Part shown: piece by piece, positions 6,987-56,148 of the stretch
How positions within the stretch are numbered: the first letter of the stretch is position 1
How the letters are laid out: each line of letters begins with the position of its first letter
Source: a virus
Reading direction: 5' to 3' (one strand)
IMG/VR virus record: IMGVR_UViG_3300043449_002710
Span: 159,261 to 223,260 of that record
Length of the DNA: 64,000 nucleotides
Program-made: the position numbers and the translations under genes
The notes under the pieces: model-generated
What the model was told of the DNA's origin: nothing
The model's input: the letters and a program-made list of their open reading frames with translations, nothing else
Database searches by the model: none

Positions 6987-8071
6987 TAGCGCCTCTTGTA
7001 CTGATCAGCATTCATGGTCTGATCGATCACATTGTCAGAAAGCCCAAAAACATCTCGCAATAATAATTTGAGTGTATGAGAAGAACCCGTAAATAGAAGG
7101 TTTGCCTCCTCGGACTGTTCTTCATAATCCACGATCTTAGTTGTGTTTTCAGTTAACCCCTCTTTGGAAAGCCAATCGGATAATTTTTGACGATCCACTG
7201 GGATCGTTTCAATAGAGATCTTGCTCAGGGGTATGGCTCTTTTTAGGGTTTGAACTTTCTCGGGTTCTTCTTGAGTCTTTTTCTGCTCTTCTGTTTTCGT
7301 TTTCTGAACTAAGGGCTTCCCACTTTTGATCTTTTTGATGGCGTCTTCTTTGAATCCGATCTTTTTAAGAAGCTCTTCTGCGAGATCCTTAGGTCCACTA
7401 TAAGAAAGTTCTTTGGTGTCCTTGTCAAAGTGGATGGAGTCAGGCCCGTCAAAATAAAAATCCTTGTCCTGATAAAAGCGAGTGACCAAGGTTTCAATCT
7501 GGTCCTCGGTCTTTGGGCTCAAAAGATTTTCTGAATGAACTAAGACCGTAAACTGAATGTCAGCTAATTGGTTGGCTTGCTCTTTCTTAGCTTGTTCAAG
7601 AAGCTTATTAGCTTCATTTTCTTTCATTCCAAAAGAATTGAGCAACGACTCGGCAATATCCAAAGGACCTTGGTAGCTGAGTTTTAAGCTCTCGGGCTCG
7701 AACTTGACATCATTGGGGCTATCAAATCGTAACCTGTTCTCCGTGTAGAAAAGAGCTACTTTTTTCTCGATCTCCTGGGGAGTCTTGGGTGTGGATAGTT
7801 TCTCTGGAGTAAGCTTAACTTGAAACTCTATTTTATCCTTAGAGCGCTCCACTCGGAGCAATCGCTCCAGCTCTTCGGGCTCTAAATCCAGAAGATTTCT
7901 CTTTTGTAACAATTCTCTGACCCAAGGCGAGTCTTTAGTTTGAGTATACCGTGTCTTAATCTTGTTAACTAAATCGTCTATTTTACCAGCCAACACCCGT
8001 TGGAAAGCTCGGGTGCTTTTGGTGTCGGCGGAACCTGTCAGAAAATGCAAAAGGGTATTCCTTGAAGGCAT
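6986..8071 (-). CDS. Tail-cluster protein with three internal repeats
   Basis: 361 residues. Two clear repeats of about 80 residues (near 83-165 and 175-250) share the pattern I-x-F-x-V ... F-Y ... L-x-Y-x-G-P ... A-E-x-L-L, for example LKLSYQGPLDIAESLL and ELSYSGPKDLAEELL. A weaker third copy near 285-350 has LLFTGSSHTLKLLL. A charged Lys/Glu linker precedes the third copy. I do not recognise the family. Its place between the tape measure gene and the two upstream genes suggests a tail assembly or baseplate role. Confidence 0.7.
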   Translation of the reverse strand: MPSRNTLLHFLTGSADTKSTRAFQRVLAGKIDDLVNKIKTRYTQTKDSPWVRELLQKRNLLDLEPEELERLLRVERSKDKIEFQVKLTPEKLSTPKTPQEIEKKVALFYTENRLRFDSPNDVKFEPESLKLSYQGPLDIAESLLNSFGMKENEANKLLEQAKKEQANQLADIQFTVLVHSENLLSPKTEDQIETLVTRFYQDKDFYFDGPDSIHFDKDTKELSYSGPKDLAEELLKKIGFKEDAIKKIKSGKPLVQKTKTEEQKKTQEEPEKVQTLKRAIPLSKISIETIPVDRQKLSDWLSKEGLTENTTKIVDYEEQSEEANLLFTGSSHTLKLLLRDVFGLSDNVIDQTMNADQYKRR

Positions 8072-19603: not shown

Positions 19604-21172
19604 ATGAGAGCCTACTTTAAATTCCCCACCCTTGCTGCGATTGTTCTAGGGCGTAATGTTGTCAACGTTCCTGGGATTGAGGACTTTGTCGAAAAATTCG
19701 AGCAAAACGATCCAAGAATCGACAACTGGCTGAAGCGGAATCTGAGGAATTGGCTCATCAAGGATTACGACCGTTTCAGGCAGATCACACACCAAGAAGG
19801 AAACCCCGACTGGGTAGGCAAGGCCTTGGAGCGCGGTGAGAAAGTCTATGAAGTCAGACTTGATCGAGAGATCTTTGACAAGATCTCTCATGTGATCGAT
19901 TGGTTCAAATCGGACGACTCGCCTAAAAGGCTGGATGCCGTAACGGTGCCCGAAGCCCTCAAGCAATCGGACGCCTGGACTGAGAAGCTTACCAAAAAGA
20001 AAGTCGATCAAGGGATTGCTCTTGCGGGAGAAGAGATTTTTAAAAAGTACGGTGACGGGTATTCTTGGCGCAAATTGGTTTCCGAAGAAGCTTTGGTTCT
20101 TGAAGGAAAGAAAATGGGCCATTGCGTGGGCGGTTACTGGAGTTCTGTGCAATCAGGGGAGACCGAGATCCTTTCCTTACGCGACCCTAAAAACGAACCT
20201 CACTGCACAGTTGAAATTAGCCACAACGAAGTACGTCAAATCAAAGGCAAGCAAAACAAATCGGTCATCAAAGAGTATTGGTCTTATGCACAAGACCTTT
20301 TGAAAACTTTGAAAGAAAACGGCGTTTATGTCGGTGCTAACAACTTATCCAATATTGGTCTCTATGAGATCGATGGAAAGATTGTCACTTTCAAAGAACT
20401 TGTAGCAAACCTAGACTTAGTGAAAGCTCTTTTGAAAAAACATTTCGGTATTGATGTGACGGATGAAATGCAAGTCCAAGTTACCGAAGATGGAATTGAA
20501 GTCGGATCTAAATTTGTGGATATCCTTTTGGGGTTTTTGCCTCTTCCACGTAGACAAATTGAAGCCTATAAAAATCTCATGGAGGATTCTTACGACACAG
20601 AATTTTCCATTCACGACCACGATGTCACCGATCTCTATGACTATGTAGAAAAGCATTACCCCAAGGCTTACAAAAGATTGGTGAAGCTTCTTGAAAGTGT
20701 CGCAACCGAGGAAGAAGCTAAAAACGAAGACTACTTGAGCCACCGCTCGGCAAGCACTTTCTTGAAGGTGTATTCCGATGAATTGCAGCCGATTTATGAT
20801 GCCGCGATCTCAGGAATCTCTGACGGCTGGAGTGTTGGAACACAAGACGCTGCTCACAAATACGTCAAAGATAAATTGTCGGAGTACGGTTGGCTGTGCG
20901 ATTCCTATACTTCCGAAGATGGAGACGGTACAGTTTGGCTTCATCTCAGTTCTAGCGCAATTGCGGATGGTTATTTAGGTGATCTCTACAAAGACCCCTA
21001 CGGAAGAAGAGATGGCTTTAATAGCGAATTCGATGAAGAAGTTGCCAAGGAGCGCTTTGTCGATGCGCTATTTGAGAATGGTTTCCTAAATCAAGCGGAT
21101 ATGGCGAGTAAGAAAAAATTAAAATCCGCTTTGGAGTATCCGGCTTTGGGAAAAATCCTAACTAGATTTTAA
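19604..21172 (+). CDS. PcfJ-like domain protein carrying YP tags at both ends
   Basis: 522 residues. Residues ~150-215 match the PcfJ-like domain of phages and plasmids: LVLEGKKMGHCVGGYW, EILSLRDPKNEPHCTVEI, QIKGKQNK. The function of that domain is unknown. The N-terminus (MRAYFKFPTLAAIVL) and the C-terminus (LEYPALGKILTRF) both carry the YP tag shared by small proteins in this window. The C-terminal half is unrecognised. No strong ribosome site precedes the ATG; the GGTTATTTT element abuts it. Confidence 0.75.
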   Translation: MRAYFKFPTLAAIVLGRNVVNVPGIEDFVEKFEQNDPRIDNWLKRNLRNWLIKDYDRFRQITHQEGNPDWVGKALERGEKVYEVRLDREIFDKISHVIDWFKSDDSPKRLDAVTVPEALKQSDAWTEKLTKKKVDQGIALAGEEIFKKYGDGYSWRKLVSEEALVLEGKKMGHCVGGYWSSVQSGETEILSLRDPKNEPHCTVEISHNEVRQIKGKQNKSVIKEYWSYAQDLLKTLKENGVYVGANNLSNIGLYEIDGKIVTFKELVANLDLVKALLKKHFGIDVTDEMQVQVTEDGIEVGSKFVDILLGFLPLPRRQIEAYKNLMEDSYDTEFSIHDHDVTDLYDYVEKHYPKAYKRLVKLLESVATEEEAKNEDYLSHRSASTFLKVYSDELQPIYDAAISGISDGWSVGTQDAAHKYVKDKLSEYGWLCDSYTSEDGDGTVWLHLSSSAIADGYLGDLYKDPYGRRDGFNSEFDEEVAKERFVDALFENGFLNQADMASKKKLKSALEYPALGKILTRF

Positions 21173-21208: not shown

Positions 21209-21655
21209 GTGGCAAAAAAAACTCGCCTTAAAAACTATCCGAGTCTTGAAATGGTTTTATCCATGGCCTTTAGTCGGGACCGTTGGGTGGACAAAGTTAG
21301 GCACCGGTTAGAGGGGGCTTTGGGCGAATACGCCAAGCAGAAGTTTGCCGAAGCCATTGGATACACGGGTTGGGATTGGACCATTGAAGTAGAAACGATT
21401 CTGGCAGGTGTTTCGGACTTAATGAACACTAAAAAAGTTCAAACCAAAACAAAATTTGACCGCAAAAAAGCTTTCCAAGAAGCTTACCAAGATGCTCAGG
21501 GCAGTTATGATCAAATCGTCCACGCTCGAAACACCTTGTGTAGAGAGCATCCATTCAACATGGAACAATACCAAAGAATTAGGCTTGTAAAACTAGATGC
21601 CGATACTTTGCTTAGAGAAATGGTTCTTAAATTTCTCCCGGGGATTTTGAATTAA
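21209..21655 (+). CDS. YP-tagged small protein
   Basis: 148 residues from GTG. It begins MAKKTRLKNYPSLEMVL, a clear copy of the YP tag, and continues as an alpha-helical, basic protein without known motifs. No ribosome site is visible, and a sigma70-like promoter lies six bases upstream, so the mRNA is probably leaderless and made early. It heads a short group with the HTH protein at 21703. Confidence 0.65.
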   Translation: MAKKTRLKNYPSLEMVLSMAFSRDRWVDKVRHRLEGALGEYAKQKFAEAIGYTGWDWTIEVETILAGVSDLMNTKKVQTKTKFDRKKAFQEAYQDAQGSYDQIVHARNTLCREHPFNMEQYQRIRLVKLDADTLLREMVLKFLPGILN

Positions 21656-21702: not shown

Positions 21703-22287
21703 ATGTCTTACTCTAAAAAGTTGATTCAGATTAGGTCCAAGAAAAACTGGAGCCAGGAAAAGCTGGCCTCCCACCTGAATGTCAGTTTCGCTACCGTGAA
21801 TCGATGGGAAAATGAAAAATCTGAACCGCAAAGAGAAGCCAGAGAGTCGATTGATGTTTTGTGGGGAAGCCTACAAGAAGAAAACTACCCTGCCCTCAAC
21901 CAAGTCCTCGCGCATTCGAAAAGATCCAAGCTCACCATTCTTTTGGACGAGAACCTTTTTCAGCTCAAGCCAGCCCTAAAAGACTCTGGGTTTAAAGTCA
22001 TCTTAATGAAAAAAGGAACCTCCGACGAGGAGATTAGGGAGCTTGCCGAAGGCACTGCCATCCTCACAACTAATTCCAAAGACTTTATTCCCCACGCTGT
22101 CGCGGACGATTTCGATGTCATCTCGGCGGAACTGATCAAGTTCATCGATACTGAGCCCACTCGTAAAAACCAGACGGTTCAAAAGATAGCCAAAGCCATT
22201 CGAGAAAGTGGGATGGTTTTCACCCGTGGTAATTTCAATTTAGTCGTCCGAGATGACGGATCTTACGAACTCAAACCTTTAGTCTAA
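21703..22287 (+). CDS. XRE-type HTH fused to a PIN-like (DUF5615-type) domain
   Basis: 194 residues. Residues ~6-45 form an HTH of the Cro/CI type (WSQEKLASHLNVSFATVNRW). A YP tag (ENYPALNQVLAHSKRS) follows near 62-78. The rest resembles DUF5615 PIN-like proteins: LTILLDENLF, an acidic pair, and ILTTNSKDF. Those families usually belong to toxin-antitoxin or RNase-fold systems; activity here is unproven. Palindromic boxes at its own promoter suggest autoregulation. Confidence 0.65.
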   Translation: MSYSKKLIQIRSKKNWSQEKLASHLNVSFATVNRWENEKSEPQREARESIDVLWGSLQEENYPALNQVLAHSKRSKLTILLDENLFQLKPALKDSGFKVILMKKGTSDEEIRELAEGTAILTTNSKDFIPHAVADDFDVISAELIKFIDTEPTRKNQTVQKIAKAIRESGMVFTRGNFNLVVRDDGSYELKPLV

Positions 22288-23364: not shown

Positions 23365-23853
23365 TCACCGCTTCTTAAGCTTGGCCTTTTTCATGGTCGG
23401 GTATTCCATCTCCGCTTTAGCGCGAGCTTTTTTAGCTAAAGTTTCTTTTTCCTTTTTAGTCAACCGCTTCACTTTGGCTTTAGAAGCTTTTGCTCTTTTT
23501 CCCTTTTTGACTTTGGCTTCGATGACTTCCGAAACAGAAGCAAAGATCGAGGCAAGTCCTGGGTAGCGATTGGAATCCACTTGAACCTTGGTCACCATTT
23601 CTTTGACTGCACCACTTTTCTTCACAAGATTCTCCAGTACGGGTTCAATCGCTTCCAAGGCTTCGTCTGCCCACTTGCGGTCGAGATCCTTGGTGGTTTC
23701 TTCAAGCTGATCGTAAGGAACAAAAGATTGCTCCCAACGAGCGCTGCGCTCGGCACTAACTTCGGCTTTGACAGCCTTTGCCCAGTGAACCCACGCCTCG
23801 TGAAAAACTTCAGCCAAGGATTCTTTGATCTGATCTTTTGTTTCTTTGTCCAT
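23365..23853 (-). CDS. RyR-domain-like protein with basic tail
   Basis: About 162 residues from ATG 23853, chosen because GAGG sits eight bases upstream and overlaps the previous stop region. Residues ~10-75 (HEAWVHWAKAVKA, RWEQSFVPYDQLEE, KDLDRKWADEAL) match the RyR-like domain found in phages. The C-terminal third is Lys-rich and ends EMEYPTMKKAKLKKR, a possible degenerate C-terminal YP tag. Function is unknown. It is coupled to the 1220-residue gene. Confidence 0.65.
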   Translation of the reverse strand: MDKETKDQIKESLAEVFHEAWVHWAKAVKAEVSAERSARWEQSFVPYDQLEETTKDLDRKWADEALEAIEPVLENLVKKSGAVKEMVTKVQVDSNRYPGLASIFASVSEVIEAKVKKGKRAKASKAKVKRLTKKEKETLAKKARAKAEMEYPTMKKAKLKKR

Positions 23854-23861
23854 TTTAAACC

Positions 23862-26800
23862 TCAAACATCTTCGTAGGTGCCGTCTTCGAAAAGAATGCC
23901 CACATGATAGCCTTTGTCGATGTGCTCTTCGGCGAGATCCATGGCTTCTTCGTAGGTTTTAACTTTGACTTCTTTTTTTCCTTCACCTTTTTTATCAAGG
24001 ATGACAGTCAGTTCTTCATCTTTCGCGGAAGCTTCTGCCTGATTGTCATATTTCTCGATGATCGACCCGATGTCAGTATACAAGAATTTATTCTTTTCTC
24101 GGTCATATACAACGGTCAAGTTGTAGGTATCGCCCGAGTTAATATACTGAAATCTTGGACGGGTCGGATTGCTTTCATTCGGGTCGTAGGCTTCCACACC
24201 GTGGTATCCCACTAAATCAGAAACGTGCTCCAAGATATTTTCGACATAGCTAGCTGGGTTATAAGTATTGTGCTTTTTGTCGTAATATCTTTCGCCGTTC
24301 TCATAGGCTTTTTTAGCTTCAGCCATGGCCGCTTTCAATTCTTCCAAGGTGGTTGAGGCTTGCGTTTTATAATAAGAAGACTCCACAACAGATATCTGAA
24401 TATCCCCAATAATCTTCTTAATGGTTTCAATCGCCAAATTCGGATCGACCTTACCTGGAATCTTAAGAATGCTATCGTCGTCAAAGGAGATGCCAGAGAC
24501 GCCTAAAGCTTTCTCGATTTTTTTGATCTGATCCAAAGAGACTTTGTCAAAACCAATTTTGAGTGCAAAAGCGGTTTCTGAAGCAGAGGCTTGCGTTTTA
24601 TAAGAAGACTCCGCAGTGAATCCGTCAAACCAATCACCGAACTCTTCGGTGTGTTTGACATTCTCAGGTTTTTCACAAGTCTTAGAGCTAGTCTCGTCGT
24701 CGTTGCACCACTCTTTCGCTTCTTCCAAAGACAGCCCTTTTTTCATGACTTTTTGAGGGTGGCCTTCTTTATAAAAGCGAACGATCTTGTAGGTTTTTTC
24801 TTCTTCTTCTTCTTCCTCGTCTTCATCTGAGGAGGCTTCAATTTTCTCGCTAGAAAGGTATTCCACCAAGTCGTCAGCCACAACCGATCCATCGGCTTCG
24901 ATCACGACCGGAACACCGGCTTCTGGATCTTCACCCATGGACTCAGCCCAGAAGATATAGACTTCATCGGGTTTAGCGGCATACTCGACCCCACGCTGAA
25001 CTTCCATCAGGTCTGGGAGATCGCCCACTTTGGGTTCTTCGATGATGGTTTCATTTCCGGCCTTATCGACCAGGATGAGCTGGCAGCCTTCCATCACCTC
25101 GTCATCACCAAGCTGAAAGTAGTCTCCACGATTAGAGGAAACTTCATCTCCGTTCTCATCGATGAGAACAGCGCTCTTATACTTCACAGCGGGGTTTTCT
25201 TTAACTGGGCCTGAGAAGAAAAAATCTTTCACCCAGAGGCGATCAATCTTGTCGCTGTCTTTGAACACGTCGATGTAAGTGCCTTGATACTTATCGAATT
25301 CGCGGTGTTCGCATTCAAAGCCATGCTTCTCAAGTTCTTTACAGATCTTGTCAAAAGTCTCGTGATCGTAATCCTGATCGGCTTCGCCAGTGGCTTCAAT
25401 CCGAACAGCGGCTTGCACCGAAGATTTGCTGGTCAATTCCATAGTGTTGCCTTTGTCGTCCTCAATGTGTTTTCCGAACGGGCTAGAGTCTTTGACCCAT
25501 TTCCAGTTGCCGGTCCCAAAAAACTTGTTTGCTTTGATTTCGGCAGCTTTAGTTGGATCGCCAGAGATCAAAACCTCCCAAGGCTTTCCGATCTTAGCGG
25601 AGTCTTCGTCATAGATATGGATGCGGTCGAATTCTTTGGCAAGATTCGGGAAAGGATCGGACTCCGCCGACTTGACGGCTTTTTTGGCGGCAGATTCCAT
25701 TTTGTAAGGGCTCACATTGCCGTGATCACTCACGTACCAAACGTTAGGCCAAAAGTTATGCTTTTGCATCCAAGCCTTGGCAGCGGCTTCTGCTTCCTCT
25801 GCCGTATTGAACTCGCCAAGGAATTCCCCATTTTTAATAGAGACAGAAATCTTTGATCCTAGTGGGCCTGAGTCAGAAAAAATAATGTCCTGGTCGTCAG
25901 GTTGATCATCTTGAAATTCTTCTTCTTCGGATTCTTCTTCTTCGGATTCTTCCGTAGCCGAAAGAACACCGTGTTCATAAACGTCTTCAGCAAATTGATC
26001 GAAATCCATCCGATCTTCGATTGAATAGTCTTGATCGAGTTTGTACTGCTGGTACATGGATTCAAGCTCTGTGAGGTTTTCTTTTAACCAAGCTTCAAAA
26101 TCGGTTAGTTCTTCCACGAGTTCTCCGCCTTCCCAGTCTTCTTCAGCACCACTTTTAACTTTGTTTTCAGTCTTGGCTGTCCACATATCTTGGTTCTCGC
26201 TGTCTTCTGGCTTGGTGGTGATGATCAGAGAGTTCCCATCCACGTCACTCCACTCTGGAATAAGAGTGGGGTAGGTTTTCTTGGTTTTGAATCTCCAGAA
26301 AAAATCCGTAAGGTTATCCGCAAACTTTTCTACTCTATGCGGGTCAGCCAAGATGTCTCCGAGTTCCAAAGCCATCTTACCTTCGCCAAGCTCTTTCAAA
26401 GAGTATTCACCGTGGAGTTCTTTATCCAAAAAGATTTCCAACGTGGTTTTGAACTTCTTCAAATCCGAATCCGAATCGTCTTCGGCTCCACCCACAGCTT
26501 GATTTCCATTTTTAGGCAGCCTAACCATTCGGCTGTGTCCGGTGAAACCAAATTTCTTATAAAATGTTCTTAATTTTGAAATCGGCATTTTGTTTTTCTC
26601 TTTAGGTACGGGCTGTAAATCAAGAATCACGCCATACTTATCCGCTAAATCTACAATAAACTGCATTGCTCTTGTGCCTTGGCCTTGTCTTGGTTCTAAG
26701 GCTTGAATCCACTTCAGAGCAACTGAGCGTTCCCCTTTGGGTCCACCCAGCCAAGGTCTCAACTCGATCACCGCTTCATTGTTAAAAATTCTAATTTTAT

Positions 26801-27524
26801 TTTCAAATGGGTGTGGCTGGGTTTTTCCCCAGACATCCTTCATAAATTTATCAATATTATCCGACTTCAAATCGGCTGGGCTAGCCTCTTGATCTGTTCG
26901 CAAGCGGAGTTTAAGTTTTTGAGTTTCGGAAGAGGTCAGCATCTTTACACTCTTTCCAAACTTGTCTTTAAGATGAGATGCGACTAGCCCCAAAAGATTC
27001 TTATTAAAAGGGGCATCCCTGTCATCGGATGCGAATTTCTTAATGCCCATTTTAGCAAGCTTGGTCCAGTCCAAAAGGGCTTTAGCTTCAGGGGCCGCTT
27101 CCTTCTTGTGCTTCTCGGCCAAGGCTTTGGCCATCTCAGAGATCTCTTCGTCTCGGGCGATTTGGTTCACTAGATCCCTGACCTGATCCCGATAGCCGCC
27201 TGGAAGCTTCTCTGGCATCGAAGTGTTGAAAAACTCTTCTGGCTTCTGCTCGATCTTCCAACCCGAGGAACTGGCAATTTGTTCCAAGTATTTGGTGTGC
27301 TTCGAGGTGGTTCGAGAATACTTCTTCTCGTTGACGTAGAGAAGATCGCTTGGCGCATCGCGTTTAGCGATAATGGTGCGATAGCTGTAAAGGGTGTCGC
27401 CCTTGGCCCAGATGATATCTCCGTCTTTGCCTACGCTTTCGCCGGTAGATAACCAAGAACGAATCAAGCCTTCTTCTTTGGCCCCAGCCATAGCCTTCTC
27501 AGCCACAATCTTTTGTCTTGCCAT
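23862..27524 (-). CDS. Large modular protein with a GNAT-like domain
   Basis: 1220 residues made of small modules joined by acidic or Ala/Ser linkers. Residues ~235-345 resemble a GNAT acetyltransferase fold (EPRQGQGTRAMQFI, then FYKKFGFTGHSRMVRL). Near 910-975 a small module begins KTYKIVRFYKEGHP and ends with WFDGF, a type seen singly in other phages. Linkers ESSYKTQASA (~975) and ESSYYKTQAST (~1053) are near-identical, also at DNA level. The last ~55 residues form another module. It could be a polyprotein or a multi-domain injected virion protein; both are inference. Confidence 0.65.
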   Translation of the reverse strand: MARQKIVAEKAMAGAKEEGLIRSWLSTGESVGKDGDIIWAKGDTLYSYRTIIAKRDAPSDLLYVNEKKYSRTTSKHTKYLEQIASSSGWKIEQKPEEFFNTSMPEKLPGGYRDQVRDLVNQIARDEEISEMAKALAEKHKKEAAPEAKALLDWTKLAKMGIKKFASDDRDAPFNKNLLGLVASHLKDKFGKSVKMLTSSETQKLKLRLRTDQEASPADLKSDNIDKFMKDVWGKTQPHPFENKIRIFNNEAVIELRPWLGGPKGERSVALKWIQALEPRQGQGTRAMQFIVDLADKYGVILDLQPVPKEKNKMPISKLRTFYKKFGFTGHSRMVRLPKNGNQAVGGAEDDSDSDLKKFKTTLEIFLDKELHGEYSLKELGEGKMALELGDILADPHRVEKFADNLTDFFWRFKTKKTYPTLIPEWSDVDGNSLIITTKPEDSENQDMWTAKTENKVKSGAEEDWEGGELVEELTDFEAWLKENLTELESMYQQYKLDQDYSIEDRMDFDQFAEDVYEHGVLSATEESEEEESEEEEFQDDQPDDQDIIFSDSGPLGSKISVSIKNGEFLGEFNTAEEAEAAAKAWMQKHNFWPNVWYVSDHGNVSPYKMESAAKKAVKSAESDPFPNLAKEFDRIHIYDEDSAKIGKPWEVLISGDPTKAAEIKANKFFGTGNWKWVKDSSPFGKHIEDDKGNTMELTSKSSVQAAVRIEATGEADQDYDHETFDKICKELEKHGFECEHREFDKYQGTYIDVFKDSDKIDRLWVKDFFFSGPVKENPAVKYKSAVLIDENGDEVSSNRGDYFQLGDDEVMEGCQLILVDKAGNETIIEEPKVGDLPDLMEVQRGVEYAAKPDEVYIFWAESMGEDPEAGVPVVIEADGSVVADDLVEYLSSEKIEASSDEDEEEEEEEKTYKIVRFYKEGHPQKVMKKGLSLEEAKEWCNDDETSSKTCEKPENVKHTEEFGDWFDGFTAESSYKTQASASETAFALKIGFDKVSLDQIKKIEKALGVSGISFDDDSILKIPGKVDPNLAIETIKKIIGDIQISVVESSYYKTQASTTLEELKAAMAEAKKAYENGERYYDKKHNTYNPASYVENILEHVSDLVGYHGVEAYDPNESNPTRPRFQYINSGDTYNLTVVYDREKNKFLYTDIGSIIEKYDNQAEASAKDEELTVILDKKGEGKKEVKVKTYEEAMDLAEEHIDKGYHVGILFEDGTYEDV
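24355..24384 (-). repeat. Linker-coding direct repeat, copy 1
   Basis: GAGGCTTGCGTTTTATAA.. is shared with 24586-24612 and differs by a 3-base insertion. It encodes the KTQAS linker of the 1220-residue protein. Confidence 0.7.
24586..24612 (-). repeat. Linker-coding direct repeat, copy 2
   Basis: This is the second copy of the linker repeat, about 230 bases from the first; the interval encodes one ~75-residue module. Confidence 0.7.
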
Positions 27525-29708: not shown

Positions 29709-30263
29709 ATGAAGAAGTATCCCACAGTTACAAAGGTTTTGACGCCTTTACGAGTAGAAGAACCTACTTGGACTCGTGAGAGCTTGCTTCAGAATTTCCG
29801 CCAACGCTCACGCGCCTTAGGCCGTTTGTCTCAAGGGCAAACTAGGATCGAAAGCCTTTATCCCAACGAGCACTTCTCCGATGATGACGTGGCGTTTGGG
29901 TATCTCACGAATTCTCAGGTCGTTGTCGCCTCCGATTTTGAAACCGAAGAGAAGGTCGCAGTCGGCTACATCGCTCATGTAGTGATGCTCGTGGCTTTGG
30001 GTTATGCCAAAGACGAAAACGATACGCACCCTAAGATTGACTATAAGGTTCGTGGGATCGTCAAAGCGGCTTTGCATCGCGATGTCATCTTTTGGGAAAC
30101 TCCAGAGGAACTTCTTTCGGACCCCGATCGGTTCTTTGCCCTTCAGAGCTGCTTGAATGAACTTCTAGATCGTGGGCTCATCTCTTCTGCCAACAAAGTC
30201 TATGGCGCTGGCACTGGCGCTACTCCCTCGCTCGGAACAGTAGGCCAACTTTTGAAAGCCTAA
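29709..30263 (+). CDS. YP-tagged protein
   Basis: 184 residues starting MKKYPTVTKVLTPL, one of the clearest tag copies. The remainder is globular (SDDDVAFGYLTNSQVVVAS, YIAHVVMLVALGYA) and unrecognised. No ribosome site is seen; the promoter six bases upstream implies a leaderless transcript. It is followed by two more tagged genes at 30296 and 31153, so three tagged proteins are made together. Confidence 0.7.
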   Translation: MKKYPTVTKVLTPLRVEEPTWTRESLLQNFRQRSRALGRLSQGQTRIESLYPNEHFSDDDVAFGYLTNSQVVVASDFETEEKVAVGYIAHVVMLVALGYAKDENDTHPKIDYKVRGIVKAALHRDVIFWETPEELLSDPDRFFALQSCLNELLDRGLISSANKVYGAGTGATPSLGTVGQLLKA

Positions 30264-30295: not shown

Positions 30296-31156
30296 ATGAC
30301 TAAACTTAGTGAAAAGAAATACCCTGCTCTCAATAGGATTTTAAGCAGCAACAGCCTGATGATCAACATCGACGGCAAACTTTACACCCCCGAGCAACTC
30401 GACCAGATGGAAGGCGAGGAGATCAAGATCGAGGGCGATCTGATTTTACCCGATCATCTCGGGCTCACTCGATTTCCTGCCTGGGTATCTCGATGCGTGG
30501 TCTTAGGTAGTTTTTTATGCCCTCGGAACCGGCTCACTTCACTCGAAGGTGCTCCGCAAAGCGTAGGTGGGGATTTTATCTGCTACGATAATCAACTCAC
30601 GACTTTGAAAGGTGGCCCACAAAAGGTGGGCGGGAATTTTTTGTGCGACTCCAATCAACTCACGACTTTGGAAGGGGCTCCTAAAAAAGTGGGTAAAGAT
30701 TTTTCCTGCGCTAGAAACAATCTCACGAACCTCAAAGGCGCACCTCAAAAAATAAACGGCGTTTTTCATTGCGATCAAAACCAACTCACTTCACTCGAAG
30801 GTGCCCCGCAATCAGCGGGAAGTTTTTATTGTACCTCCAACCAGCTCACTACCCTTCGAGGCGCTCCCCAAGTAATCGAAAGTTTTGATTGCACCGACAA
30901 TCAACTGGTGAGTTTAGAAGGCGCACCTGAAAAAACCAGTAAGAGTTTTCGTTGTGGCGTAAACAAGCTCACTAGCCTCAAGGGCGCACCTAAAGAAGTG
31001 GGCTGGGAGTTTGCTTGCTTTGAGAACCAACTCACTTCACTCGAAGGTGCTCCAGCAAAAGTGGGGTGGGGTTTTGACTGCTCCAAGAACGCTAAAAAGT
31101 TCACCAAAAAAGACGTTCAAAACGTCTGTCAGGTGGGTTTGAAAATAAAGGTATGA
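30296..31156 (+). CDS. YP-tagged leucine-rich-repeat-like protein
   Basis: 286 residues. The N-terminus MTKLSEKKYPALNRIL is a tag copy. From about residue 65 there are roughly eleven repeats of about 20 residues with the pattern N-Q-L-T-S/T-L-E/K-G-A-P-x-x-V-G-x-F-x-C. They form a leucine-rich-repeat-like solenoid of a kind seen in large phages. Each repeat has a conserved Cys. Such solenoids usually bind proteins; the partner is unknown. The stop overlaps the next start (ATGA). Confidence 0.75.
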   Translation: MTKLSEKKYPALNRILSSNSLMINIDGKLYTPEQLDQMEGEEIKIEGDLILPDHLGLTRFPAWVSRCVVLGSFLCPRNRLTSLEGAPQSVGGDFICYDNQLTTLKGGPQKVGGNFLCDSNQLTTLEGAPKKVGKDFSCARNNLTNLKGAPQKINGVFHCDQNQLTSLEGAPQSAGSFYCTSNQLTTLRGAPQVIESFDCTDNQLVSLEGAPEKTSKSFRCGVNKLTSLKGAPKEVGWEFACFENQLTSLEGAPAKVGWGFDCSKNAKKFTKKDVQNVCQVGLKIKV

Positions 31157-31608
31157 GTATGAAAAGTTTGAATAAAAGAAAGTTCCCAAAGCTGTCAAAA
31201 GTATTAAGCTACATCGACAAAGCCGTCCCCAAAGAAATGTGTGACTGTGGTGCGACCTCCACGGGAAGCAACATGCACTCGACTTGGTGCAAAGGCGTGA
31301 AACCGGCTGAAGCTTCTAGCCAAGAGATCGAGAAGCTGGCCAAAAAATTCAGCGAGCTTTTGCGCTCGGATCATACCGCCGAAGAGATGGAAGAAGTGAT
31401 TGAAAAAAATCGCGAGCACAAGGCCAACGGAGATAATGGGATCTGCGCTACCCACGATATCTGTGACGCCAACATGGTCATGCTCGATGCTTTTAAAAGC
31501 GTCACCGGCAGAGAACCTAGCTTTTTAACAGACTCCGAAAACGAAGCCGATATGCCGCTTTGGAACAAAGCTTGGGAATTAGCCAAAGCTAATGAGTTCT
31601 GGGTCTAA
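31153..31608 (+). CDS. YP-tagged small Cys-containing protein
   Basis: 151 residues. The start MSMKSLNKRKFPKLSKVL is a tag copy with Phe in the aromatic place. CDCGATSTGSNMHSTWC near residues 33-49 could bind a metal. The rest is helical and unrecognised. It is coupled to the solenoid gene by a 4-base overlap and converges on the endonuclease gene with a 4-base overlap. Confidence 0.7.
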   Translation: MSMKSLNKRKFPKLSKVLSYIDKAVPKEMCDCGATSTGSNMHSTWCKGVKPAEASSQEIEKLAKKFSELLRSDHTAEEMEEVIEKNREHKANGDNGICATHDICDANMVMLDAFKSVTGREPSFLTDSENEADMPLWNKAWELAKANEFWV

Positions 31609-33441: not shown

Positions 33442-34209
33442 ATGGATAATAGGACTATAGTTTTAGGAAGCACAGTGTCAACCGAAGAAACGCGCATCTG
33501 TAAGCTAGATGACGTTCGAAATCAGAATTTTGTTTTAGCTGCGGAAACGAGTGCTGGGCCTTTAAGCAAGACCTTTTTAGAAATCGATTATTCATGGCTT
33601 CCTCTCTGTGCTGACACCTATAAGATTTCTCCGAACATCCAAGACTATGTTTTTGTTCAGGTTCCAATTATAACAAGCGATACTCCAAATCGCAATCTTC
33701 AAAGTTTTCCATTTTTAGAAATTAGTTCCTGGGACGTGAATCAGGGCTCTCCAGTTTATAAAACTTTCGTAGGTAAACCCACCTACACCAACCACAAAAA
33801 CAACACGATCCCGCATCTTGCCAAAGGCGTTCATTTCGACTCAGCCCTCCAGTACGTTCCTAAGTACGACATCTACAAGATCAACGTGCTTTTGGGATTT
33901 GATAAGTCAAAAGATCCGGGCCTGTGTGAAGCGATCCTGAAGAACAAAGGCGTCACCGGCTACTCGATGGGCAGCATGGTGAGTACCTTCCTTGATTCTG
34001 TTACTGGGAAATATATCGGTCTCAACGATCCCGAGTACAAAAAACATCGAGGCGCAATCGACAAAGCAACAGGAAGACTTCGCTACTTGTCTTGTATCGG
34101 AGCCACCTTCTTTGAAACTTCGTGCTTAGGAGATTTCGGTCGAGGCGACCCAGGGGAGCCACCGGCTGATTCAGAAGCTAACAATTTGAATTCATTCGTC
34201 TTTTTGTAA
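33442..34209 (+). CDS. Prohead protease-like protein (T4-type family)
   Basis: 255 residues. FVGKPTYTNHKNNTIPHL near residues 110-127 and KGVTGYSMGSMV near 168-179 match the His and Ser motifs of the prohead proteases of large myoviruses. The usual Cys pair after the Ser motif is not obvious, and a Cys is at LSCIG. In this family the enzyme trims scaffold and head proteins during capsid maturation. No ribosome site is visible. Among the YP-tagged genes it offers a possible processing enzyme for them; that link is inference. Confidence 0.65.
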   Translation: MDNRTIVLGSTVSTEETRICKLDDVRNQNFVLAAETSAGPLSKTFLEIDYSWLPLCADTYKISPNIQDYVFVQVPIITSDTPNRNLQSFPFLEISSWDVNQGSPVYKTFVGKPTYTNHKNNTIPHLAKGVHFDSALQYVPKYDIYKINVLLGFDKSKDPGLCEAILKNKGVTGYSMGSMVSTFLDSVTGKYIGLNDPEYKKHRGAIDKATGRLRYLSCIGATFFETSCLGDFGRGDPGEPPADSEANNLNSFVFL

Positions 34210-39384: not shown

Positions 39385-40965
39385 ATGAAACTTTTTCACG
39401 GCACGTCTTCAAAAAAGCTTTCGATAATAAAAAAAGATGGGCTTTTAAATCCTTTTTTAACCAACGATATTAAATTAGCCGAATACTATGCGGATCTGAC
39501 TAGCGAGATGGATGAATCCTCCCCTGTTATCCTTGAAGTTGAAGTTAATAAAAATTTCCTCGTTTACGACAAAGCTGCAATGGATGAGCCTGTTTTAGTG
39601 CCAGAAAAACAAAGAGATCAAGCTTGGGAAAAAGCAGCAAGAGAACACCCAGAGTGGGTGAAAAATGGTTTTATTTGTATCCCAAAAAACGCTTGGGAGT
39701 ATTCTTTAGTTGGTGTGCATTCGGTGCAGTACCGTGGAATTATCCCCGCCAATAAAATTAAAAATAAAGACCCCTCTATCCTGTCCAAAAAATATACAGG
39801 TGCCCCTTCTGTAGACAGCTATCCTGTCACCACTTCTATATTGCGTAGCGGCATAGAAATTGATACATCAGGGATGTGGACGAAAAAGAAATCAGCCAGA
39901 AATTTTACAATGCACTCCTTAGACACAAAGACGAGTACATCAAAATCTTGGGCAAAGAGAAGTACGAGCAATCAATTGCCGAACTTCGCAATCGTCTTGA
40001 CTCGATCGAGTCCCACAAAAAAATTTTGGAAGAGATTAGGAACCTGCCCGAATCCGAGCGATCGAAAATCAATAACTACAGCAGCCTTATCGCCTACCTT
40101 GAAAAACTTTGAAGTAAGGGCAGATTCCTTAGGTGGCCCGGGCTACGGGCTCTCCCAACCCAGCCCCCATCAAAACGGATCGGACACTCCGGTCAGGGAG
40201 GATTCTCTCCCAGCAGGGGCCCCGATGGCCATCCACGAGATGAATCGACGCGGGGTGGAAGTCAAAGAAGCGCTCATGATTCGGCCTTATTATTTAGATA
40301 TGAAGACTCAAACCCCGAAAAAACAATATCCCACACTTTCTGCCATCTTAGCAGCCGAAGCCAAGGAAGAAAGAACCTTGGAAGAAGCTGAGAAGGCTCA
40401 GGGCATGGAAAAGCTTGGGATTGCTTCCCCGGAAGAGTTTGCGGTTAAGTTCAAGGGGAAGCTTCAAGAGTTGGCCGAGGAACATGGGATTGGGGATGCC
40501 ATCGCTTACAGCTTCCGCTCTCGTAAGATCGAACTGATCGGAAGCGATGCCATCCTGCTTCTCGATTACGACATGAACGCTCTTTACACTCGTCCCATGT
40601 ACCCGGTCGATGTGGACGGCATGATTGAACTCGATGAAGAAGACCTCGAATCCGAAGAGACAGAAGAGACAGAAGAGACAGAAACAGAAGAGACAGAAGA
40701 ACCTGAAGCCGAAGAAACAGAAGAAGCTGAATCCGCCGTTCACGCTGGCATGAATCTTTCTCCAGATGAGCCTTTCGACGACGAAACTTCTGCAGAAGAG
40801 TTCAATGAATGGCTTCACAAGTTGCGTCAGGTTTGGGAGTCCTACGAAGGAAAACCAGTTCCCCATTTCGGCAAAGCAGATGAAGATGGCGGTGCCAATT
40901 ATCGTAAGGACTGGGCAAATTTAGTTCAGGCAATGGAAAAGTTTTTAATCGCTTATTACGGATGA
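39385..40965 (+). CDS. Long open frame: ADP-ribosyltransferase-like domain, then a second gene in frame
   Basis: The frame is open for 526 codons but probably is not one protein. Residues 1-160 look like an ADP-ribosyltransferase-fold domain (MKLFHGTSSKKLSIIKKDG, DIKLAEYYADL); the third catalytic residue is not assigned. From codon ~165 to 242 the composition turns Ser/Thr/Lys-rich while a good helical protein appears in the -1 frame (39876-40112). From ATG 40300 a tagged acidic protein begins. I read this as an ART gene with a frame break, followed by a separate gene at 40300. Confidence 0.45.
   Translation: MKLFHGTSSKKLSIIKKDGLLNPFLTNDIKLAEYYADLTSEMDESSPVILEVEVNKNFLVYDKAAMDEPVLVPEKQRDQAWEKAAREHPEWVKNGFICIPKNAWEYSLVGVHSVQYRGIIPANKIKNKDPSILSKKYTGAPSVDSYPVTTSILRSGIEIDTSGMWTKKKSARNFTMHSLDTKTSTSKSWAKRSTSNQLPNFAIVLTRSSPTKKFWKRLGTCPNPSDRKSITTAALSPTLKNFEVRADSLGGPGYGLSQPSPHQNGSDTPVREDSLPAGAPMAIHEMNRRGVEVKEALMIRPYYLDMKTQTPKKQYPTLSAILAAEAKEERTLEEAEKAQGMEKLGIASPEEFAVKFKGKLQELAEEHGIGDAIAYSFRSRKIELIGSDAILLLDYDMNALYTRPMYPVDVDGMIELDEEDLESEETEETEETETEETEEPEAEETEEAESAVHAGMNLSPDEPFDDETSAEEFNEWLHKLRQVWESYEGKPVPHFGKADEDGGANYRKDWANLVQAMEKFLIAYYG
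39876..40112 (+). CDS. Helical 78-residue frame, perhaps the end of the ART gene
   Basis: This frame begins at a GTG and reads DEKEISQKFYNALLRHKDEY... ending SLIAYLEKL. It looks like real protein, while the overlapping frame of 39385-40965 does not. No proper ribosome site precedes the GTG. Either a frameshift separates it from the ART domain or it is made by re-initiation. Confidence 0.5.
   Translation: MDEKEISQKFYNALLRHKDEYIKILGKEKYEQSIAELRNRLDSIESHKKILEEIRNLPESERSKINNYSSLIAYLEKL
40285..40299 (+). promoter_or_regulatory. CTTATTATTTAG promoter-like element
   Basis: CTTATTATTTAGAT runs into ATG 40300 and supports a gene start there. Confidence 0.35.
40300..40965 (+). CDS. YP-tagged acidic protein
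   Basis: 221 residues from ATG 40300. It starts MKTQTPKKQYPTLSAIL, a tag copy. A globular middle (DAIAYSFRSRKIELIGSDA) is followed by a Glu/Thr repeat near residues 118-145 and a C-terminal helical part. The acidic run is encoded by short imperfect DNA repeats and may vary in length. The stop is four bases before the next tagged gene. Function is unknown. Confidence 0.65.
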   Translation: MKTQTPKKQYPTLSAILAAEAKEERTLEEAEKAQGMEKLGIASPEEFAVKFKGKLQELAEEHGIGDAIAYSFRSRKIELIGSDAILLLDYDMNALYTRPMYPVDVDGMIELDEEDLESEETEETEETETEETEEPEAEETEEAESAVHAGMNLSPDEPFDDETSAEEFNEWLHKLRQVWESYEGKPVPHFGKADEDGGANYRKDWANLVQAMEKFLIAYYG

Positions 40966-40969
40966 TCCA

Positions 40970-41251
40970 ATGAAAAATCTTAAAAAATACCCTACCCTTT
41001 CCAAAGTCTTGGCCGCCAAATCCACCGTTCAAGCGGGCAATTGGGATATCACAGCCGAAGACTTGGTGGACTTCACCAATAATGTCGAGCCTCTTTACTT
41101 AGAAGCTCAGTCGATGCGGACCATGCGCCAAGCCGAAGCTTTGGCAGAAGAAGTCATCGACGCTTATAAAAAACAATCCCCAGGACATAAGATTGTGACC
41201 GATGTTTCGGAACTTGCCGAGGCGCTCTGGGCTGAATTCAAATCTCAATAA
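40970..41251 (+). CDS. YP-tagged small protein
   Basis: 93 residues starting MKNLKKYPTLSKVLAAKS, the closest match to the tag consensus. After a short link (TVQAGNW) comes a helical domain. It is part of a run of small plus-strand genes (40300-41796) of which three are tagged. No known family. Confidence 0.7.
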   Translation: MKNLKKYPTLSKVLAAKSTVQAGNWDITAEDLVDFTNNVEPLYLEAQSMRTMRQAEALAEEVIDAYKKQSPGHKIVTDVSELAEALWAEFKSQ

Positions 41252-41502: not shown

Positions 41503-41796
41503 ATGAAAAAATACGAAACCGTAGAAAAAGTTATCGCCGTTTCAACAAAAGCTGACGTGTTTAAAGGCGATTTAGGTTATCTCGCTTTGTCACAAAAAGA
41601 AGCAAAGCCTTCTGAATTTTACAGAAGCTTAGAAAAATTTGTGACCATGCTCGCACCTGATCAGGAAGCCGCGAGTGAATGGCTGCAGAAATCCAACCTC
41701 GATATCGAAAACGGGGATAGCTATTACGTCTACGAGGTCAGCATTAAGCTGGTCGGAGAAAAGACGTACTCTAAAGACGAGGAAATGGAAGAGTAA
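41503..41796 (+). CDS. Small protein with degenerate YP tag
   Basis: 97 residues starting MKKYETVEKVIAVS, which keeps the tag pattern but has Glu for Pro. The body is mixed and ends in an acidic tail. It follows the previous stop by three bases. Unrecognised. Confidence 0.6.
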   Translation: MKKYETVEKVIAVSTKADVFKGDLGYLALSQKEAKPSEFYRSLEKFVTMLAPDQEAASEWLQKSNLDIENGDSYYVYEVSIKLVGEKTYSKDEEMEE

Positions 41797-55755: not shown

Positions 55756-56148
55756 CTAGTGCGCGATATAGATCTCGTGAGCCATCCTAGTCATGAAGCC
55801 CACCAGTTCCTGGATATTCTGATCAGTCGGGTCAACGCCGAACTGCTCTAAGAGATCGTGCGCCTGAGCCAAAGATTGCAGCGTTTCATTTTGAATGAAT
55901 TGCATCAAAGCTTGTGGGTTTTTGGCTTTGACAAAAGCCCCTGGATGGCTCTCGGTATAGGGATCTAAGCCTTGTTTTTTCAGTTCCGAACGGATGCGCT
56001 CATTGGATTTCTGAACCAAAAGATAGGCCTGATCGATCAAAGCATCCGTCTCATTCCCATCGAGGCCAAAATCCGCCAAGACACGCGCTTTCTGCGCAGA
56101 AGTGACAATTTTCTGCAGAGTAGGATACTTCCGAGAGATCGATTTCAT
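55756..56148 (-). CDS. YP-tagged helical protein
   Basis: 130 residues. MKSISRKYPTLQKIVTSAQ is a clear tag copy; the rest is helical and unrecognised. It is the only clear N-terminal tag copy on the minus strand. A short tandem repeat around its stop (near 55735-55775) shows a small duplication. Confidence 0.65.
   Translation of the reverse strand: MKSISRKYPTLQKIVTSAQKARVLADFGLDGNETDALIDQAYLLVQKSNERIRSELKKQGLDPYTESHPGAFVKAKNPQALMQFIQNETLQSLAQAHDLLEQFGVDPTDQNIQELVGFMTRMAHEIYIAH

Follow-up and report, generated by a model that had tools for sequence, protein, structure and literature searches.

A 1220-residue chain of small modules, with a duplicated linker, in a jumbo phage of the PaBG group

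The locus and its phage

The stretch of DNA analyzed here (the window, 64,000 nucleotides) corresponds to bases 159,261-223,260 of a viral record of 223,260 bases. Matches of its MCP (G000:130661-131770; phrog_2522, 9e-55; 36% identity to the PaBG MCP) and its terminase (phrog_17415, 3e-115) place this 223-kb jumbo phage in the PaBG group. An earlier note had described a modular ORF of 1220 residues with repeated KTQAS linkers, and both the ORF and the two linkers were confirmed: the reading frame occupies exactly 23862-27524 on the minus strand, starts with ATG and has 0 internal stops. The features discussed below are as follows (window coordinates; residues are those of the 1220-aa protein).

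23365..23865, minus: downstream overlapping gene, 166 aa, RyR-like domain (Pfam RyR, E 5e-6, just under the curated cut-off), with an internal YPGLASIFAS tag
23862..27524, minus: 1220-aa modular protein, uninterrupted ORF
23865..24020, minus: module 13 (residues 1169-1220), beta-beta-alpha-beta, pLDDT 72-85 over most of its length
24012..24041, minus: linker QAEASAKDEE (residues 1162-1171), from sequence, pLDDT mostly <50
24351..24383, minus: linker ESSYYKTQAST (residues 1048-1058), DNA copy of the other KTQAS linker plus one TAT codon, pLDDT <50
24384..24572, minus: module 11 (residues 985-1047), beta-alpha-beta, HMA/Atx1-like, no Cys, AlphaFold pLDDT 70-84
24582..24611, minus: linker ESSYKTQASA (residues 972-981), DNA copy of ESSYYKTQAST
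24609..24794, minus: module 10, the YKIVRF module (residues 911-972), a stand-alone protein in other phages
24798..24845, minus: linker KIEASSDEDEEEEEEE (residues 894-909), from sequence, with the acidic run DEDEEEEEEE at 900
25377..25421, minus: linker SVQAAVRIEATGEAD (residues 702-716), from sequence, one of the six [EQ]A[ST] sites
26511..26807, minus: GNAT-like module (residues 240-338), weak (Pfam Acetyltransf_7, phrog_11975, Atu_ph07)
27222..27398, minus: module 1 (residues 43-101), small-phage-protein family with the motif YSY...YS.TTSKH (phrog_5643, E 1.5e-4; phrog_4264, E 2.1e-4)
33442..34209, plus: phage prohead protease, candidate cleaving enzyme (blastp 4e-27 to JA13_132, 3e-24 to BcepSauron gp085)

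The ORFs neighboring the chain are RyR-like, RuvC-like and PAPS-reductase-like, as partly identified by eye, and are not virion genes. Elsewhere in the genome (G000:128809-140703), several kb separate the MCP gene from its neighbors in relatives, the "virion structural protein" and scaffold-like genes (137837, 138631), and a Mom-like/homing-endonuclease ORF (128809) sits next to it, which suggests an invasion of the head operon. At G000:21257-22678, a 473-aa ORF without a Pfam match contains two stretches that resemble ADP-ribosyltransferase folds by eye (LYHFTPVGQIVGIF, LYHGTSLHSLEKIL) and adjoins ORFs of 1645 and 2451 aa; it, its large neighbors, or all of these are possible candidates for injected effectors.

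Modules with relatives in other phages

Module 10 (residues 910-972) occurs in 56 viral contigs, in most of them as a stand-alone ORF of ~45-90 aa, which bears out the claim that other phages have YKIVRF modules on their own; Tunturi_3 gp107 (86 aa, 39% identity) is one such relative. Many of the stand-alone proteins end in WFDGYxEE (WFDGYxxE), and the chain has WFDGFTAE at this position, followed by a linker, the natural C-terminus of the module coinciding with the start of ESSYKTQASA. Module 10 is a full copy of these proteins, but is embedded here in a 1220-aa chain. In one contig (L160), module 10 is fused to itself in tandem.

Module 1 resembles the small phage proteins of phrog_5643 and phrog_4264, which are small families (79 and 93 positions) or stand at the N-terminus of a 309-aa ORF (L177), whereas here the module is part of a 1220-aa fusion. 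The family is also present in two other records, G007 and G066. In the latter (L177/G066), each of modules 10 and 1 has its own gene, and the two genes are neighbors: the module 10 match covers 7353-7541 and the module 1-like match covers 7585-7746, beginning 44 bases past the former and in a different frame. Residues 240-338, previously described as GNAT-like, match phrog_11975 (E 0.0018) and are 30% identical to an Atu_ph07 protein, and the description is plausible on this similarity, but weak, as Pfam Acetyltransf_7 scores below threshold (E 0.07; 13.9 bits vs. a cut-off of 27).

The 1220-aa protein as a whole has 0 relatives in phages, plasmids, viral contigs, genome contigs, and 50 MCP-related viral records, and module 6 had no match in a scan of viral contigs. 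A second chain is encoded in G007, a jumbo phage with a related MCP (674 aa, 197907-199931). This chain has the module-1 family twice and linkers of its own (NEAEAS/NEATAAT), as well as the highest [EQ]A[ST] density among all ORFs of at least 300 aa in 12 records. Both chains combine the module-1 family with E-A-x-A-S/T linkers; however, the linkers of the 674-aa chain are alike partly through its internal duplication, and its other modules are unmatched to the 1220-aa chain.

AlphaFold was run on single sequences, and the models were mostly poor (mean pLDDT 37 and 44). Residues 985-1047 (pLDDT 70-84) and 1169-1220 (72-85 over most of the segment) are predicted to be compact, and the adjoining linkers fall below 50; modules 11 and 13 are modeled in this way as linker-bounded units. 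Module 11 gave PDB fold matches to copper chaperones (HMA/Atx1; best E 0.039, prob 1.0). The search table carried no region, and the match was placed on residues 985-1047 via predicted secondary structure. Since the module has no cysteines, metal binding is not implied. The model of residues 1-545 was uninformative (mean pLDDT 37), and fold matches from low-confidence parts were disregarded. The older image of "beads on a string" is supported for at least two modules: both stand alone elsewhere and are encoded side by side in another phage, and the modeled domains have linkers at their borders. The fusion architecture is shown for the modules with relatives; most modules are without detectable relatives, and gene fusion is thus shown for two or three only.

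Linkers and a second repeated peptide

The linkers ESSYKTQASA and ESSYYKTQAST have common DNA, GAGTCTTCTTAT+AAAACGCAAGCCTC, and the sole difference within that stretch is one TAT codon (both copies, GAG TCT TCT TAT [TAT] AAA ACG CAA GCC TC). No exact direct repeat in the gene is longer than the 18 nt found in this pair; synonymous resamplings of the protein average 12.4, and 5/200 of them reach 17. All 8 shared codons agree, for which the chance given the same residues is ~10^-3.8. The two linkers are near-identical in DNA, as the earlier note had it. No further copy was found genome-wide at up to 9/36 mismatches, ungapped. Long selection on the peptide would have let synonymous sites drift; the linkers are instead codon-identical, and because every shared codon agrees, the data point to one linker that was recently copied as DNA. 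The identity of the two peptides is accounted for by this duplication.

Module 11, and no other module, lies between the copies of the direct repeat (12 + ~15 nt, with a 3-nt insertion). Such an arrangement would be expected if the linkers were recombination sites, at which repeated DNA allows modules to be gained or lost and the peptide itself has no role. This appears quite improbable as an account of the linkers, as the DNA likeness is limited to one pair and the other [EQ]A[ST] linkers differ; it is, moreover, compatible with a fusion chain.

Apart from the KTQAS pair, the linkers have no more than a loose [EQ]A[ST] core in common, and their DNA is not alike. The core occurs 6 times in the 1220-aa protein, where 1.2-1.4 occurrences are expected (shuffle p 0.0045; Fisher p 0.0013), and 4 of the 9 occurrences of [KR]x[EQ]A[ST] among all predicted proteins of the phage fall in this one, although this pattern was picked after seeing the data. 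The claim that other linkers follow a similar pattern holds in so far as the core is enriched, but the likeness is only loose. The sequence surrounding the sites is not unusually disorder-prone (simple scale, p 0.31). The enrichment exceeds what plain spacers need, which counts against a simple fusion chain; internal duplication may partly account for it.

A different short peptide, YPTLxKVLAS, recurs in this genome. In the form [KR][YF]P[TSA][LV]xK[VI]L(A/S)(S), 10-12 residues long, it is found at the N-terminus, at the C-terminus or in linkers of ~24 otherwise unrelated ORFs. Those in the window lie at 19604-21172, 21209-21655, 21703-22287, 23365-23865, 29709-30263, 30296-31156, 31153-31608, 39385-40965, 40970-41251, 41503-41796, and 55756-56148, and others are found elsewhere in the genome (e.g., G000 46630, 48846, 59500, 125379, 126652, 127074, and 143540). 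The genome has 27 matches above the score cut-off, the few lowest of which are marginal, whereas shuffles yield 0-3; each of 11 related records has 0-4 weaker matches, and the DNA pattern has one exact match in viral_contigs. Unlike the KTQAS linkers of the same genome, the tag is conserved as a peptide while its codons vary freely, which indicates that the peptide is under selection. The tag is similar in logic to the T4 capsid targeting sequence, but is also found at C-termini, and it is probably more surprising than the modular chain. A tagged 162-aa ORF (G000:48846-49334) ends in SRYRTQASTSGFPND, a C-terminal cousin of the KTQAS linker. Two paralogs (G000:46630-47037 and window 31153-31608) have in common the tag, CDCGATSTGSxMHSxWCKGV and a QAS/EAS linker, after which their C-terminal parts are unrelated, a pattern that reads as module shuffling at the linker. 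A link between the tag and QAS sites was considered and dropped, as the 3 [KRSGEN][VTIA][QE]A[SGADT] sites in tagged ORFs are near background by a rough estimate.

Possible processing, packaging and role of the chain

T4-type head maturation relies on the gp21 protease and involves internal proteins with capsid targeting sequences. The present phage is alike in having the protease and an MCP whose N-terminus carries a conserved motif, but its chain carries no N-terminal tag and has linkers that misfit both the MCP motif and published sites. The earlier note had proposed that the chain is a polyprotein cut by the prohead protease, which would act in trans on [KR]x[EQ]|A[ST] linkers and free the beads in the prohead or the cell. 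The phage does encode an intact-looking prohead protease (window 33442-34209), with His and Ser motifs that align across 5 phages. In PaBG, several virion proteins are reportedly processed by the protease, some at multiple sites, and the MCP loses ~20% of its mass in maturation (PMC7412058). The enrichment of [EQ]A[ST] in the 1220-aa protein and in the G007 chain would also suit cleavage, and in KIE|AS, RIE|AT and QAE|AS a Glu precedes Ala, as in T4-type sites; KTQ|AS, on the other hand, has no Glu. Within the otherwise variable N-terminal region of the MCPs of the group (loci L021-L100), GE[ILFV]NA[SGHNY] is kept in nearly all, and GE[ILFV]NA[SG] is a candidate maturation site. In this genome GE[ILFV]NA is found in the MCP only and is absent from the chain. 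The published motifs are [LI]xE for T4 (PMC9026906) and AxE for SPN3US (PMC10052503); [LI]xE and [AS]xE do occur in the chain, but never where the KTQAS, KIEAS, RIEAT, and QAEAS linkers would presumably be cut; the P3 residues of these linkers do not fit. The chain itself contains neither a Pfam peptidase nor an HExxH motif, so an embedded peptidase is absent, and the identity of the KTQAS pair is explained by the recent DNA duplication. Since the MCP, T4 and SPN3US motifs misfit the linkers and a peptidase is absent from the chain, cleavage is unsupported, though not disproved, and we regard the polyprotein as improbable. A broader form of the idea, in which a single specificity, [K/E/R]-[V/I/T]-[L/N/E/Q]|A-[S/G/T], unites MCP EINAG, the tag KVLAS and the linkers KIEAS/KTQAS/RIEAT, and the chain is a prohead-processed cargo polyprotein, is very improbable; were it true, the chain would release several small effectors within the head. 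If the capsid protease did cut the chain, a cargo polyprotein of this sort would be an unusual case for a phage.

Polyvalent proteins, described from phages and conjugative elements, are large chains of unrelated small domains, GNAT included, that have solo versions elsewhere (Iyer et al., 2017, PMC5512222). They are the nearest known class for the 1220-aa chain, which likewise joins several unrelated domains in one long protein, appears to be built from solo versions (modules 1 and 10 have them in related elements), and may include a GNAT-like domain. In its full form, this comparison would have the intact chain enter the virion and be injected along with the DNA, several counter-defense or takeover activities then acting together. 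The G007 chain seemingly lies among head genes, with neighbors identified by eye. However, from the published domain set (ART, MPTase, GNAT, ArdC, etc.) only a weak GNAT is present, no domain having a Pfam match above cut-off; the chain is not located near late or virion genes, its own neighbors (partly assigned by eye) being the RyR-like, RuvC-like and PAPS-reductase-like ORFs; and it has no terminal tag, a potential packaging signal (best score 1.2 vs. 11-30). Injection of the intact chain is accordingly rated unlikely, though less so than cleavage.

On balance, it is somewhat probable that the chain was built up by fusion of small phage genes and functions as one multi-domain protein, in the spirit of "polyvalent proteins". 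In-frame joining would have combined small phage proteins, some of them separate genes in other phages, and short linkers, either acidic or Ala/Ser/Glu/Gln/Lys-rich, would serve as spacers; the KTQAS pair is a single linker that was copied, and the copying may have brought in module 11, which the two copies now flank. We infer that the chain stays intact and has a role in host takeover: acting uncut, it would tether several small activities, made at a fixed ratio, in taking over the host cell.

Jumbo phages encode hundreds of tiny genes of unknown use, and the make-up of such a chain is a plausible guide to those that act jointly, as with modules 1 and 10, which are also gene neighbors elsewhere. 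The chain also offers one construct for testing.
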